Notes under the pieces: model-generated
What the model was told of the DNA's origin: nothing
Databases searched by the model: none
The model's input: the letters and a program-made list of their open reading frames with translations, nothing else
Position numbers and translations under genes: made by a program
Shown here: one piece after another, positions 26,353 to 35,627 of the stretch
How positions within the stretch are numbered: the stretch's first letter is position 1
Layout: every line of letters begins with the position of its first letter
NCBI GenBank assembly: GCA_017622825.1
Contig: JAGAQK010000030.1
Location: 1-36,379 of the forward strand
DNA length: 36,379 nucleotides
Reading direction: 5' to 3'
From: Clostridia bacterium
GTDB lineage: Bacteria; Bacillota; Clostridia; UBA1212; UBA1255

Positions 26353-27258
26353 TTAAATTTTCACGTAGCGGCGTACTGCGATTATACCGGAAACTACGCC
26401 AATGAGTATTCCGGCGCCCAGGAACATAAGCAGAACGCTTAAAGAGAATTCCGAAAACTCTGCAAGACCTAAAATTTCACGAAGGCTTGACGAAGTGCCG
26501 GCTACAGCCTTATACACATATGAATATGTTATACGCAATGCAAAATATGAAAGAATTGCACTTATTAAGCCTATAAATATACCTTCTATTACAAAAGGCC
26601 CTCTCATATACGCTCTCGAGGCGCCTATATTTTTCATTATTTTCAATTCTCTGTTCCTTGCAAAAACTGTCAGTCTTATTGTATTTGCCGACAGCAGCAC
26701 TGACAAGAAGCCAAAAACAATTACTGCCGCTAAGCTACCTATCCTGACACCGTTGTTAATTGTGGAAAAATAATTATACACTGACGTATTATCAGTTACT
26801 TCTTCCACTCCGGGCACTTTTTTCATATCAAGCGCGAACTGCTGTACATTTTTTACTGACTTTAGCTGCACTCTGAATGACACGTACATATAATCCGAGT
26901 CAAAATTTTCAAAAAGATCTTGTTCTTCTTCAAACATTTCTATGGCGTTTTGAAGATTTTCCTCTTTTGATATTCTCTCAACAGCATCTACACGTGAATC
27001 ACTGATAATAATATCAGCTATCGAATAGCTTGCCGCATCACTTATATCTGTGGAGCAGTCTATCATCAATTCTTTTTGCTGATTACTCAAGTCTGTCAAT
27101 ATTCTTTGCAAATTGACAGAAAGCATCATAAGGCATCCCATGATATAAAGAGAAACAAATAAAACAAACACAGACGAGAACATCATATGCCAGTTTTTGA
27201 AACAATTCGCCACGCCCTGACGCAATATATAATAAAACGTTCGTATTTTACGCATCAT
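26353..27258 (-). CDS. ftsX: Cell division ABC transporter permease FtsX
   Basis: FtsX is the membrane half of the FtsEX complex that couples ATP hydrolysis to murein hydrolase activation. The start chosen is the ATG at 27258, nine bases after AGGAGG and overlapping the end of ftsE; the longer open frame (to 27336) is ftsE-overlapping and has no ribosome binding site. About 301 residues: a basic N-terminus with IRTFYYILRQGVANCFKNWHM, one helix, and an extracellular domain (about 55-165). Three helices follow (GSLAAVIVFGFLSVLLSANTI, FVIEGIFIGLISAILSYFAL, VLLMFLGAGILIGVVSGIIA), with the conserved NRELKIMKNIGAS between them. The typical partner murein hydrolase (EnvC/PcsB/CwlO-type) is not next to it. 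Confidence 0.94.
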   Translation of the reverse strand: MMRKIRTFYYILRQGVANCFKNWHMMFSSVFVLFVSLYIMGCLMMLSVNLQRILTDLSNQQKELMIDCSTDISDAASYSIADIIISDSRVDAVERISKEENLQNAIEMFEEEQDLFENFDSDYMYVSFRVQLKSVKNVQQFALDMKKVPGVEEVTDNTSVYNYFSTINNGVRIGSLAAVIVFGFLSVLLSANTIRLTVFARNRELKIMKNIGASRAYMRGPFVIEGIFIGLISAILSYFALRITYSYVYKAVAGTSSSLREILGLAEFSEFSLSVLLMFLGAGILIGVVSGIIAVRRYVKI

Positions 27259-28198
27259 TTTCGCTTGCCTCCTGACTTTCCTGTTTCTCTTGTTCTGCCT
27301 GCTTTTCCTCGTCATTTTTCTGTTGCTGCGAAGCAATACTTATGGAGGCAACAGGTATTTCCACTTGAATCGGCTCCTCAGCCTTTTCGTTTTCTGCAGG
27401 CTTTTGTGTTTCTTCTTCGGACGGAACTTCCGCTGTCTGCTCTGCTTCGGGCTGAGCTTCCTGTTTTTCATCTACTGAAACATTATGCCCGTGATTAAGC
27501 ATTATCACTCTCATGCCCATTTCTTCGGCCATACTCTGTTCATGCGTCGCAACGAGCACCGTCGTTCCGTAAGAATTAATCATTTTAAGCAACGACATAA
27601 TTTCTGCGGAGTTTTGGGGATCAAGGTTTCCCGTAGGCTCGTCTGCTATGAGTATGCCGGGGCCGTTTACGATTGATCTTGCTAACGCAACTCTTTGCTG
27701 TTCGCCTCCCGAAAGATGGCTGGGATATTCATCCCTTTTACTGCTAAGTCCCATAAGAGAAAGCGTTATATCCACCTTTTCTTTGATTTCTTTTCTTGAA
27801 GCGCCTGTTATTTCCATTGCGAATGCTACGTTTTGAAATACTGTTTTCTTATCAAGCAATCTGAAGTCCTGGAAGAAAACGCCTATGCTGCGCCTGTATT
27901 TTTGTACGTTTGATCTTCTGATTTTTGCCACGTTATGTGAATTTACGAAAATTTTTCCTGCGGTCGGTGTTTCCTCAAGCAGAATCAATTTTATAAGAGT
28001 AGATTTGCCGGCGCCGCTTGAGCCCATCAAGAATACGAATTCGCCTTCTTCAATCTTAAAGCTCAAATTTTTAACGGCTTCTACGCCATTTTGGTATTTC
28101 TTTTCAACATTATCAAAAACAATAATCGGGCGATTTCTCTGCTCGTTATTGAATAACCCTTTTTTCTTTGCCTGTTTTTCTTTTGTAGTTTCACTCAT
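27248..28198 (-). CDS. ftsE: Cell division ATP-binding protein FtsE with long acidic C-terminal tail
   Basis: FtsE is the ATPase of FtsEX. The ABC core (about residues 25-243) has Walker A GSSGAGKST (59-67), Q-loop FFQDFRLLDKKTV, signature LSGGEQQR (162-169), Walker B ILIADEPTG and the H-loop VATHE. NVAFAMEITG is typical of FtsE. The core is preceded by a Lys-rich 20-residue extension. It is followed by about 73 extra residues rich in Glu, Gln, Ala and Lys, predicted to be disordered or coiled; normal FtsE is about 225-235 residues. The gene overlaps ftsX by 11 bases and follows the PucR gene by 32 bases. Confidence 0.95.
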   Translation of the reverse strand: MSETTKEKQAKKKGLFNNEQRNRPIIVFDNVEKKYQNGVEAVKNLSFKIEEGEFVFLMGSSGAGKSTLIKLILLEETPTAGKIFVNSHNVAKIRRSNVQKYRRSIGVFFQDFRLLDKKTVFQNVAFAMEITGASRKEIKEKVDITLSLMGLSSKRDEYPSHLSGGEQQRVALARSIVNGPGILIADEPTGNLDPQNSAEIMSLLKMINSYGTTVLVATHEQSMAEEMGMRVIMLNHGHNVSVDEKQEAQPEAEQTAEVPSEEETQKPAENEKAEEPIQVEIPVASISIASQQQKNDEEKQAEQEKQESQEASENDA

Positions 28199-29526: not shown

Positions 29527-29818
29527 GAGTTTGAATCGACCTCGACAGGGGAAAATTTATGCGGAAATTTGAAAAACCCGCATAAATTCCGTTTGTCTCT
29601 GGAGTTCAAATCGACCTCGACCGGGAAAATTTATGCGGAAATTTGAAAAACCCGCATAAATTCTGTTTATCTCTGGAGTTCAAATCGACCTCGACCGAGA
29701 AAATTTATGCGGAAATTTTAAAAACCCGCATAAATTCCGTTTGTCTCTGGAGTTCAAATCGACCTCGACCGAGAAAATTTATGCAGAAATTTGAAAAACC
29801 CGCATAAATTCCGTTTGT
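29527..29818. repeat. Four tandem 74-75 bp repeats, each with a hairpin
   Basis: Units start at 29527, 29602, 29676 and 29750 (the last about five bases short). Each has GAGTTCAAATCGACCTCGAC (GAGTTTGAATC in the first), then the inverted repeat AATTTATGCGG/CCGCATAAATT with a loop of about 13 bases, then CCGTTTGTCTCTG. Units differ at only a few positions; the fourth has one stem mismatch (GCAG). The array fills most of the divergent intergenic region between the PucR gene and the tRNA promoter. The GTTCAAATC element resembles a tRNA T-loop. There is no CRISPR-type spacer diversity. Confidence 0.9.
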
Positions 29819-29954: not shown

Positions 29955-30031
29955 GGCGGCGTAGCTCAGTTGGCCAGAGCATCCGGTTCATACCCGGCAG
30001 GTCATAGGTTCAAATCCCATCGCCGCTACCA
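29955..30031 (+). tRNA. tRNA-Met (anticodon CAT)
   Basis: A 77-base cloverleaf. The acceptor stem GGCGGCG/CGCCGCT is closed by a G-T pair. The D-arm has AGCTCAGTTGGCCAGAGC, the anticodon loop TTCATAC reads CAT, the T-loop is TTCAAAT, and discriminator A with CCA is encoded. The paired first base (G1-T72) favours elongator over initiator tRNA-Met. A lysidine-modified tRNA-Ile is less likely given the close resemblance to Firmicute elongator Met. Confidence 0.95.
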
Positions 30032-30033
30032 TC

Positions 30034-30108
30034 GGCCCCTTGGTCAAGTGGTTAAGACATCGCCCTTTCACGGCGGCGACACGAGTTCGAATCTCGTAGG
30101 GGTCACCA
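30034..30108 (+). tRNA. tRNA-Glu (anticodon TTC)
   Basis: A 75-base cloverleaf two bases after tRNA-Met. Acceptor GGCCCCT/AGGGGTC, anticodon loop CTTTCAC (TTC), T-arm with GAGTTCGAATCTC, and encoded ACCA end. The pair is co-transcribed and followed by a terminator. Confidence 0.96.
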
Positions 30109-30419: not shown

Positions 30420-30548
30420 TTACATATTTGCCATCCACGATCCCAACATATATCCCAAATCATATAATGTATTTAAGCCCGCTGGAATCAAATAAAAAGC
30501 AATGGCTATAACAAGGCTTTTTGAAATCTTTTTTTCCTTTATATCCAT
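30420..30548 (-). CDS. 42-residue membrane peptide, possible immunity or partner peptide
   Basis: A small gene below usual length cut-offs. The ATG at 30548 is six bases after a good AAAGGAG ribosome binding site (30555-30561); an adjacent ATG at 30551 is an alternative. The product begins MDIKEKKISK and has one hydrophobic helix (LVIAIAFYLIPAG). It then has LNTLYDLGYMLG and ends SWMANM, with a TAA stop. The AG.N.LYDLGY..G segment closely matches the bacteriocin-like frame that it overlaps in another register (30460-30747), which suggests common origin or mimicry. Position directly downstream of a double-glycine peptide is typical for immunity genes. It could instead be a second bacteriocin peptide without leader. 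I do not recognise a named family. Confidence 0.6.
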   Translation of the reverse strand: MDIKEKKISKSLVIAIAFYLIPAGLNTLYDLGYMLGSWMANM

Positions 30549-30747
30549 CATAAACTCCTTTACCAAACATAGCAGCACCACCCGCAATAAGGGCACCTAC
30601 TCCAATTTTATACCCCAAATCATACAATTCATTGTATCCGGCAGCAACCGTAAAAACGCCAAGAGCAATTTGTTACCATCCGCCTTGTACCTTTTCCATC
30701 TCGCCTTGAGACATATTATAGAAAACATTAGCTTTAATCATTTCCAT
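30460..30747 (-). pseudogene. Double-glycine leader bacteriocin-like peptide gene with in-frame stop
   Basis: An excellent ribosome binding site (AAGGAGGT, 30756-30763) stands eight bases before the ATG at 30747. The first 23 codons form a typical class II double-glycine leader ending MSQGEMEKVQGG. One Trp codon later the frame meets TAA (30673-30675), then stays open for 70 more codons to 30460. That stretch looks like a mature bacteriocin: VFTVAAGYNELYDLGYKIG, then the Gly/Ala-rich VGALIAGGAAMFGKGV and YDGYKGKKDF. Without the stop it would be a normal prepeptide. The stop is most simply a nonsense mutation, or a sequencing error; as it stands only a 24-residue peptide is made. No bacteriocin exporter (peptidase-containing ABC transporter) is in the window. 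Confidence 0.6.
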
Positions 30748-30772
30748 AATTATGTACCTCCTTAAAAATTTT

Positions 30773-30816
30773 ATTATATTAAGGCAAATACATTTGAAGC
30801 CGTACGCACTTCAAAT
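30773..30816 (-). promoter_or_regulatory. -10 element and inverted repeat upstream of the bacteriocin-like gene
   Basis: A perfect TATAAT (30773-30778) lies 26 bases before the ATG at 30747, but the -35 position reads GGCTTC, so an activator may be needed. Overlapping the -35 region is a perfect 8-base inverted repeat ATTTGAAG/CTTCAAAT (30792-30799 and 30809-30816) with a 9-base spacer, suitable as a dimer binding site. Confidence 0.45.
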
Positions 30817-31068: not shown

Positions 31069-32040
31069 ATGCCGCTTGAAATAGTAAGAAACGATATAAC
31101 AAAAATGAAGGTGGATGCCGTCGTCAATGCCGCTAACGAATCACTGCTCGGTGGCGGAGGTGTTGACGGTGCAATTCATTATGCCGCAGGCGTGGAACTT
31201 CTCGAAGAGTGCAGAACGCTTGGCGGTTGCAAGACGGGTAAGGCGAAAATCACAGGTGGATATAAATTGCCGGCCAAGTATGTAATACATACCGTAGGCC
31301 CTATTTACGAGGACGGCAAGCACGGAGAAAAGGCATTGCTTGAATCCTGTTACCGCGAGTCTTTAGCTCTTGCAAAGGCACACGACTGTGAGACCGTTGC
31401 TTTCCCGCTTATATCTTCAGGTGTGTACGGATACCCCAAGGACCAGGCACTAAAGGTTGCCATCGACGTTATCAGTGAATTCCTTCTAAAAAACGAAATG
31501 ATGGTTTATATCGTCATCTTCGACAAAGCTGCATATAAGATAAGTGAAAAGCTGTTTTCTGATATTGCCGAATACATTGACGATAATTACGTGCACGAGC
31601 ATACCAAATACCTTTGTGGTAGTATTCGAATGAATGCACCGATGATTTCCTACACAAATTTCGAGAAAACAGATGATTTAGCGGCAAAGCTCCGGCAGAT
31701 TGACGAAAGCTTTTCACAGATGCTTCTGCGCAAGATAGACGAGAAAGGCATGACTGATGCCGAGTGCTATAAGAAAGCAAACATTGACCGCAAGCTATTC
31801 TCCAAAATCCGCAGTGATATTAATTACAAGCCAAGCAAACCTACCGCACTTGCCTTTGCAATTTCCTTGGAGCTTTCTCTTGCAGAAACCGAAGAAATGC
31901 TCCGCAAGGCAGGGTTTGCACTGTCACACAGTAACAAGTTCGATATTATCATCGAATATTTTATAAGCCGTGGCAACTACAATATTTTTGAAATCAATGA
32001 AGCTCTGTTTGCTTTTGATCAGAGCTTGTTAGGAGCGTGA
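31069..32040 (+). CDS. Macro-domain protein with C-terminal helical (HTH-like) domain
   Basis: A 323-residue cytoplasmic protein. Residues 1-165 are a complete macro domain, the fold that binds ADP-ribose and often removes it from proteins or nucleic acids. Landmarks are [20 protein letters not shown], the following [30 protein letters not shown] and [11 protein letters not shown]. The Asn-Ala-Ala-Asn and Gly-rich loop match ADP-ribosyl hydrolases of the YmdB/MacroD type. Residues 195-323 form a second all-helical domain ([19 protein letters not shown], a [15 protein letters not shown] helix pair, and [20 protein letters not shown]), similar to helix-turn-helix domains seen in Firmicute accessory regions. 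AGGAGG precedes the ATG. It is co-transcribed with the ArsC-like gene four bases downstream. Confidence 0.88.
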
Positions 32041-33154: not shown

Positions 33155-34756
33155 TTATGCTCCCTTGATTGAAATACCAGAAACGGTAGCCTTTGAAAGA
33201 TGCGCGAACGTTCCGAAGTATCCTGACTTCGCGAACTTAGTGGAGCTTATAATCAAATATTTATTGCTGCCATTCCAAACAATCGACTGACTGCTTCCCG
33301 TGTCAAGCGTTATGCTAAGAAGCAGCGTTTCGGCGCCTGTTGACGAAACGTGGTAGTATTTTATAACGTCACCGCTGTCAACTACTACGATTTTTTGCGC
33401 AGACGAAACGCTCGCGGGCAAATCAACGCCCACTTCTCTGACCGGCCATATTTTGGGATTGCCGAAATACACACTTGCTTTATTTTCGGTAAAGGCTACC
33501 CACACGCCGCCCAACGCGCCATTCGGGAAATTCTTGGCAGGATCAGGTATTCTCGCGCCTATGTAACAAGCGTTCCAATAGTTTGTATCAGATGAAGAAG
33601 GTACTGATTGTACTTTAACGTGCAATTCATATTGGTTGTATCCAACGCCGGGCTGATACTTGTAATCAAGATTATAGCTTTTAGCGCCGCCATTCCATGA
33701 ATAATTAGCTTTCTTGAAAACTTCCTTGGCAGTTGCTTTGGGTACAGCAACTGTTTCAGAAGGTTTTACGTAAATTGAAGCGTTATTTATAGGAATTTTG
33801 CTTGTATTAGGTCTGTATGCAAACATAAAATTGTTTATAGCCTCTCTGAAAGGCTGTTTGCCACGCGTAACCTCAGTGCCCGTTGTACCTGTAATACGAG
33901 CCTGGCTACCTGCATCATATCTTAAAAATTTGTTATCTGCACCTTTGCTGCTTGCGCAGAAGAATATGTGTCCCGGTACTCCACCTTCCTGTGGATTAAT
34001 AAACACTATATCCCCTGCTTTAAGTCTATTAACGCTGGTAATCTTTTCAAAACCTTGTTCCACGCACCATTCTTCAAGATTATCAACTGTCATACCATAA
34101 TTATATATCTGATTTGTAAATCCTACTCTGAAAAGCACCCAGCCTATAAGTCTGTCACAACTTATTAATCTCTCCGTAGGATTTATTGAACTGTTAACGT
34201 CAAGAGCGCCCCAATTGTACGCAGGGTTAATCGTCGGATTGCCATATTTAAATCTCTTTGCTCGCATAAAATCAGTAACATTTTGCGCTTCTTCAAGAAT
34301 TTTCTTTACGAGCGAATCATAATCCGTCGGAAAGATAGGAGACGGAGATGGTGTTGTCGTAGGTGTCGGGGTTTTCGTCGGCGTTTGTGTAGCCGTTGGT
34401 GTCGGTGTTTGTGTTGGCGTCGGCGAATATGTAGTCGACGTCGGCTTCAATGTAGGTGTAGGAGTGGGTTTCTGGGTAGGCTCGAGCGTTGGTTCAGATG
34501 TTAGCGTTGCCGTTGGCGTCTCGGTTGTTCCCTCTGTAGTAGCTGCAGAAGGCGCCGGCGTAAACTCGCCATCAGGTTTTCCCGTAGCTTGCTGCGTTAC
34601 CGACGTAGTCGGTACTGCGGTATTCGTCCCCGCACTAACTGCCGGATGCGTCTTATTGTTTTCGTCATTTGTTGATGTAGCACATCCAAATACAGGCACA
34701 ACAATGACTAAACATAACAACAAGCAAACAAAAGATTTGCTCAATTTACTCATCAT
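33155..34756 (-). CDS. Large NlpC/P60-like lipoprotein with Thr/Pro-rich linker
   Basis: A 533-residue surface lipoprotein. The signal peptide ends VFGC (Cys about 25). Residues 30-145 are a low-complexity Thr/Pro/Ser stretch (PTPTPTLKPTST, TPTPTATQTPTKTPTPTT) suited to span the wall. Residues 150-335 resemble an NlpC/P60 cysteine peptidase: a nucleophile in ERLISCDRLIGWVLF, then RLKAGDIVFINP and the histidine in GVPGHIFFCA. The motif around Cys is SCDR instead of the usual DCSG. The last 190 residues are beta-rich and carbohydrate-binding-like (YNLDYKYQPGVGYNQYELHV, ending near FGTFAHLSKATVSGISIKG). The ribosome binding site AAGGAG is adjacent. Its promoter is at 34795-34823. A smaller paralogue lies upstream. 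Confidence 0.85.
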   Translation of the reverse strand: MMSKLSKSFVCLLLCLVIVVPVFGCATSTNDENNKTHPAVSAGTNTAVPTTSVTQQATGKPDGEFTPAPSAATTEGTTETPTATLTSEPTLEPTQKPTPTPTLKPTSTTYSPTPTQTPTPTATQTPTKTPTPTTTPSPSPIFPTDYDSLVKKILEEAQNVTDFMRAKRFKYGNPTINPAYNWGALDVNSSINPTERLISCDRLIGWVLFRVGFTNQIYNYGMTVDNLEEWCVEQGFEKITSVNRLKAGDIVFINPQEGGVPGHIFFCASSKGADNKFLRYDAGSQARITGTTGTEVTRGKQPFREAINNFMFAYRPNTSKIPINNASIYVKPSETVAVPKATAKEVFKKANYSWNGGAKSYNLDYKYQPGVGYNQYELHVKVQSVPSSSDTNYWNACYIGARIPDPAKNFPNGALGGVWVAFTENKASVYFGNPKIWPVREVGVDLPASVSSAQKIVVVDSGDVIKYYHVSSTGAETLLLSITLDTGSSQSIVWNGSNKYLIISSTKFAKSGYFGTFAHLSKATVSGISIKGA

Positions 34757-34916: not shown

Positions 34917-35627
34917 TCATTTTTTTACAGGTCTGTATGCAAACATAAAGTTATGTATCGGTTCACTTGATGGCTGAACAGATTGTATTCTTGTATCCGA
35001 CCCGCAATCATATCTAAAATGATTATTGCCCGAGTCATGTCCTGCATAAAGGAAAGTGTGTCCCGGATAAATAACCCCTGATTTAGACACTTTTGGAGTA
35101 ACAAATACAATATCACCGGCTTGCAATTCATCTACATTTTCAATTCTTGTAAAACCATGCTTTTCGCACCAAGTTTCAAAATCATGATCATTTCTTCTGG
35201 AATCAAAAACATATATACCGTTTTCTTCTGGCTGATCCGTAAAACCTACATCATAAAGAGCCCAACATACAAATCTATCACAGCTAACAAGCTTCGCTTC
35301 GCAATTCATAGCAGGATTCATTGGTGCATGGCCATATTTAAAACCTGCCTCACGCACAAAATCAGTAATTCTCTTTCCAGAACTTAAAATATCAGCAACA
35401 AGCTCCGAGTGAGTAGTATACACTACTTTATTTGAGGAATCATAAACCTGATATCCGTATTGAGCAAGCTTATCAGCCTTCTCTTTAGCCTCATCAATAT
35501 CAGTATAACTATACTCCTCCATCTCGGCTCTTGCAGTTTTAACGTAATACCTATTGCTACAACTAGTTCCCGTAAAAGCCATCATCAAAATCACTCCAAA
35601 AAGTACAATTCTCAATAGTTTTTTCAT
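34917..35627 (-). CDS. NlpC/P60-like lipoprotein, small paralogue
   Basis: A 236-residue lipoprotein with lipobox TGTSC (Cys about 23). A short alpha-helical stretch (DIDEAKEKADKLAQYGYQVY) precedes the catalytic domain, which matches the larger neighbour: KYGHAPMNPAMNCEAKLVSCD and DRFVCWALYDVGF, then ELQAGDIVFVTP and the histidine in YPGHTFLYAGHDSG. The C-terminal HNFMFAYRPVKK is nearly identical to the neighbour's NFMFAYRPNTSK. It has the same SCDR active-site variation. Compared with its paralogue it lacks the Thr/Pro linker and the C-terminal beta domain. Probably a peptidoglycan or peptide hydrolase on the outer face of the membrane; the substrate is unknown. A poor promoter (TTGACT-17-TAGTAT, 35661-35689) lies upstream. 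Confidence 0.85.
   Translation of the reverse strand: MKKLLRIVLFGVILMMAFTGTSCSNRYYVKTARAEMEEYSYTDIDEAKEKADKLAQYGYQVYDSSNKVVYTTHSELVADILSSGKRITDFVREAGFKYGHAPMNPAMNCEAKLVSCDRFVCWALYDVGFTDQPEENGIYVFDSRRNDHDFETWCEKHGFTRIENVDELQAGDIVFVTPKVSKSGVIYPGHTFLYAGHDSGNNHFRYDCGSDTRIQSVQPSSEPIHNFMFAYRPVKK

Follow-up and report, generated by a model that had tools for sequence, protein, structure and literature searches.

A double-glycine (GG) prepeptide gene of bacteriocin-like character, interrupted by a stop codon one codon after its GG site, lies on the minus strand of the 36,379-nucleotide stretch of Clostridia bacterium DNA analyzed here (the window). We consider it probable that this is an acquired orphan locus, made up of an unmodified class II-type (lactobin A/cerein 7B-like) GG precursor and a related small membrane peptide, which has since been inactivated. 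The locus sits between a divergent macro-domain gene (31069-32040, plus strand) and a tRNA-Met/tRNA-Glu pair (29955-30108, plus strand), in AT-rich surroundings (GC about 0.30-0.37) with a strong G>C skew on the minus strand. Its features, in the order in which the minus strand is read, are the following.

30792-30816, minus strand: inverted repeat ATTTGAAG-9 nt-CTTCAAAT, 5' of the gene, read from the sequence
30773-30778, minus strand: TATAAT, candidate -10 box, read from the sequence
30757-30763, minus strand: Shine-Dalgarno sequence AAGGAGG, 9 nt 5' of the ATG, read from the sequence
30676-30747, minus strand: leader ORF, MEMIKANVFYNMSQGEMEKVQGG (double-glycine leader) plus W, from the translation; coding score 5.7 bits
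30673-30675, minus strand: in-frame TAA, one codon past the GG site, read from the sequence
30517-30672, minus strand: read-through mature part of 52 codons, QIALGVFTVAAGYNELYDLGYKIGVGALIAGGAAMFGKGVYDGYKGKKDFKK, rich in Gly, Ala and Tyr and containing GxxxG; coding score 19.6 bits, TIGR03949 match
30555-30561, minus strand: SD-like AAAGGAG ahead of ORF2, 3 nt before its first ATG and 6 nt before its second, from the sequence
30420-30548, minus strand: ORF2, MDIKEKKISKSLVIAIAFYLIPAGLNTLYDLGYMLGSWMANM and stop, with one hydrophobic stretch and no leader; coding score 6.5 bits, reached by 0.045% of shuffles
30529-30535, minus strand: A7 run where the coding signal leaves the prepeptide frame for that of ORF2, from the sequence and frame scores
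30460-30516, minus strand: final 18 open codons of the prepeptide frame and TGA; coding score -5.8 bits; sliding frame scores

The start of the gene is as an earlier note, made from the letters alone, had described it: a strong ribosome binding site, a 23-residue GG leader, one Trp codon, TAA and 70 further open codons all check out in coordinates and residues. Translation would begin at the ATG at 30747, the leader ends in MSQGEMEKVQGG, and the open codons run to a TGA at 30462-30460. The window has a single instance of the strict combination of Shine-Dalgarno sequence, ATG and double-glycine leader, and 300 Markov simulations of the window produced none. A looser leader pattern hits the genome at this locus and nowhere else, and its reversed control pattern has no hit. 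Further upstream, the inverted repeat may possibly serve as an operator or regulatory hairpin, to judge from its sequence; no convincing -35 element accompanies the TATAAT, and a consensus promoter scan listed no promoter there.

The coding signal continues beyond the stop. Scored with a codon table trained on the genes of the window, the 52 codons after the TAA (30672-30517) reach a value equaled by none of 20,000 dinucleotide shuffles, while all other frames of this stretch, on both strands, score negative. Coding selection has therefore acted on the stretch past the TAA until not long ago, or is still acting on it. From 30516 to 30463, the final 18 codons of the 70 are non-coding-like and are an out-of-frame reading of ORF2, so that the proposal of a bacteriocin sequence running through all 70 post-stop codons stands for the first 52 and falls for the rest, which ORF2 covers. 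That no gene ever existed here, and that the arrangement is due to chance, would agree with the zero homologues in all collections searched, but it is strongly rejected by the coding statistics and, separately, by the SD-ATG-leader combination, and we give it hardly any credence.

What kind of peptide would the uninterrupted frame encode? The sole informative profile match of the read-through product is to NCBIfam TIGR03949 (class IIb bacteriocin, lactobin A/cerein 7B family), at 19.9 bits and E 0.00045, below the curated cut-off of 21.5 bits; it spans all 45 model positions, from the leader across the stop into the mature part, and in a six-frame scan of the genome the same model gave 13.5 bits. 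Searches of Pfam, PHROGs and PDB sequences returned nothing significant. Like members of the lactobin A/cerein 7B family, the locus has a double-glycine leader of fitting length and, after it, an amphipathic mature part that is rich in Gly and Ala and contains GxxxG. It differs from them in the sub-cut-off score, in the internal stop and in having no exporter, no accessory protein and no partner peptide with a leader nearby. Judged by sequence, a lactobin A/cerein 7B-like way of working is therefore reasonable, with family membership not established. In an intact ancestor, a C39-type ABC exporter would cut after the GG and free a roughly 50-residue Gly/Ala-rich amphipathic peptide, the GxxxG segment of which would act on target membranes; ORF2 may have served as a partner or immunity peptide, or have formed a C-terminal repeat within that product.

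ORF2 was absent from the earlier note. It has 42 codons in a frame that differs from that of the prepeptide, overlaps the last 18 codons of the latter, and from about 30550 downward its frame is the one occupied by the coding signal. It is also related to the read-through mature part: IALGVFTVAAGYNELYDLGYKIG aligns to IAIAFYLIPAGLNTLYDLGYMLG, none of 5000 residue shuffles aligned as well, and the similarity was returned in genome searches at E 0.011 and 0.0027. Both contain GxxxG (GYKIG in the read-through mature part, GYMLG in ORF2), and both contain N-x-LYDLGY-x-x-G. As a DNA pattern picked after the sequence had been seen, the latter motif has exactly two matches in the window, and 100 shuffles gave none. 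In the genome contigs the same pattern met 14 contigs, none with a small GG peptide; the matches included polyprenyl-synthase-like proteins.

ORF2 has a plausible start of its own, so the shift in frame is not necessarily a sign of damage. A single gene with two repeats may have suffered two lesions (the stop and the frame change), or the first of a pair of related neighboring genes may have suffered one. It is also conceivable, though quite unlikely, that two separate small genes are at work here, one of them a leader-only or otherwise short ORF and the other ORF2, a still expressed, immunity-like or leaderless membrane peptide. ORF2 has the SD, the start and a coding score that few shuffles exceed, as such an arrangement would require, but the strongest coding signal, that of the 52 codons after the TAA, would be left unexplained, and ORF2 has no homologue in 391 class genomes apart from an LrgA-like membrane protein in G371 that we judge to be a chance match. 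Moreover, we know of no use for a 24-residue ORF ending in GGW. Among class IIb two-peptide bacteriocins the mature peptides carry GxxxG, as do both small ORFs here, but both adjacent precursors should have leaders, and the adjacent and related ORF2 is leaderless. Thermophilin 13 likewise has GxxxG in two small ORFs with adjacent genes, yet its two peptides both have a GG cleavage site, and ORF2 has none (PMC10059821). Sequence similarity to any named two-peptide system was not found.

What, then, is the nature of the stop? A functional class II bacteriocin gene is expected to have an uninterrupted precursor frame; under the standard code, the TAA at 30675-30673 halts translation one codon past the GG and leaves a leader product only. 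Recoding or read-through of the TAA, yielding the full precursor, would account for a frame that is open and coding-like on either side, and the stop lies within an RNA hairpin of modest strength (z = -2.1). We have set this hairpin aside as a recoding signal, since it is weak and there are no relatives in which covariation could be assessed. No known recoding element is present, Rfam gives just the two tRNAs here, and elsewhere in the window TAA is an ordinary stop, which makes a recoded stop highly improbable. Of the three causes that the earlier note had offered (recent inactivation, sequencing error or recoding), recoding thus has little but the open frame in its favor, and inactivation fits best because there is no exporter, a second frame change is present and the locus was not found in congeners. 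The disruption is probably recent, since the start and ribosome-binding signals look intact.

The observation that the window holds no exporter is upheld, and it extends to the genome assembly. The ABC genes in the window (26353-28198) we take to be FtsE/FtsX, as recognized from their sequence. A search for Peptidase_C39 (PF03412), the domain of the transporter that the earlier note had proposed to look for elsewhere in the genome, gave no match at E<=1 in the organism's own genome, a draft of 1.69 Mb in 182 contigs that is 90.7% complete. Among 31 members of the order the same search was positive in 5, and among 14 control genomes in 8. The assembly may lack about 9% of the genome, so the absence is not absolute and could be confined to the assembly. 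An intact precursor that lacks an exporter would have no known way out.

An error in consensus or assembly is the main rival to an inactivated gene. In that case the stop, and perhaps also the A7 frame change, would be artifacts, and the real gene would be an intact orphan bacteriocin precursor. The draft state of the genome and the otherwise undamaged-looking coding and translation signals would suit such an error, but a lone wrong base in a contig is uncommon, and the missing C39 exporter fits a non-functional or freshly acquired gene. On balance we find an assembly error doubtful, if well worth keeping in mind. Pneumococcal blp loci offer a parallel, in that double-glycine bacteriocin genes are retained without a working dedicated exporter (PMC4739728). 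In those loci the damage lies in the exporter and the peptides are intact, whereas in the present genome it has hit the peptide gene, and a C39 exporter was not found at all. In pneumococci with broken blpAB, BlpC is still processed through ComAB (PMC4739728); since another C39 exporter substitutes there, a missing dedicated local exporter is not fatal, although no substitute is seen here. In congener G003, a C39-peptidase ABC protein (733 aa) adjoins a second large ORF of 731 aa (L055, G003:C72:4000-23000). The stretches examined near the C39 exporters of G003, G005, G011 and G025 contained no small double-glycine ORF of the same pattern.

Comparison with congeners points to a variable site. 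The tRNA-Met/tRNA-Glu pair is kept at 91-95% identity in G001, G002 and G003, the three that could be compared, with different genes around it, and beside the pair neither the GG locus nor the macro gene has a DNA match in any of the three. In G003 the pair is adjoined by what is presumably a CDP-alcohol phosphatidyltransferase-like gene, recognized by its sequence. In G001, an IS30-like transposase gene and a beta-glucosidase-like gene, likewise recognized by their sequence, lie between the regulator gene and the pair (L075, G001:C32:35000-42600); the site has therefore been rearranged between species. With the tRNA pair conserved, its neighbors different and the locus unmatched, the site must be regarded as variable, and acquisition of the locus would be the simplest explanation.

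Protein searches recovered no homologue of any kind, and thus not the uninterrupted one that had been sought in related genomes: 196 relatives, 31 order members and 391 class members yielded the organism's own locus only, and genome contigs, viral contigs, phages and plasmids yielded none. Weak protein matches at E 0.01-0.1 fall within unrelated larger frames or non-coding stretches and were rejected, as were congener DNA matches to the upstream region (L018) and the mature part (L019), which lie at the start of or within unrelated genes. An undescribed bacteriocin group, as the earlier note had raised, is possible, with one broken copy to represent it. More specifically, the locus could be the founding member of an undescribed double-glycine family that carries N-x-LYDLGY-x-x-G twice in overlapping frames, in a secreted peptide and in a leaderless related membrane peptide that is possibly its immunity or partner peptide; we deem this unlikely.

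Taken together, the leader and Shine-Dalgarno sequence beyond chance expectation, the coding signal that runs on past the TAA and the sub-threshold TIGR03949 match across the join bear out the description of a stop-interrupted bacteriocin-like GG prepeptide and argue for an inactivated gene, and the second frame change at the A7 run beside a related ORF argues for an inactivated locus. The AT-rich composition of the region and its strong skew count on the same side. Against this reading stand the shortfall of the TIGR03949 score from its cut-off and the lack of a homologue that would prove an uninterrupted ancestor or decay. As found, the locus is a single broken copy, of use mainly as an example of how bacteriocin-like genes come and go at a variable site next to tRNA genes; its significance is slightly raised by the repetition of the LYDLGY segment and by the total absence of relatives. 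If intact versions exist, they would form a small new class II bacteriocin-like group from a bacterial family that has been little sampled, and the related ORF beside the precursor, which has no leader, would be an unusual feature.

Two other features of the window deserve mention. A tandem array (29527-29818) lies in the interval from the PucR-HTH regulator gene to the tRNA pair; it has a 74-bp unit in 3.9 copies with 94% matches, and every unit has an inverted repeat around TTTATGCGG...CCGCATAAA. On the other side of the locus, two adjoining genes on the minus strand (34917-35627 and 33155-34756) encode putative lipoproteins that share similar stretches, for example SCDRF/L...GDIVF...FMFAYRP; Pfam gave no match to either at E<=0.01, and in congener G003 the gene at 34917-35627 has a DNA match of 76% identity (L074 3728-4413).
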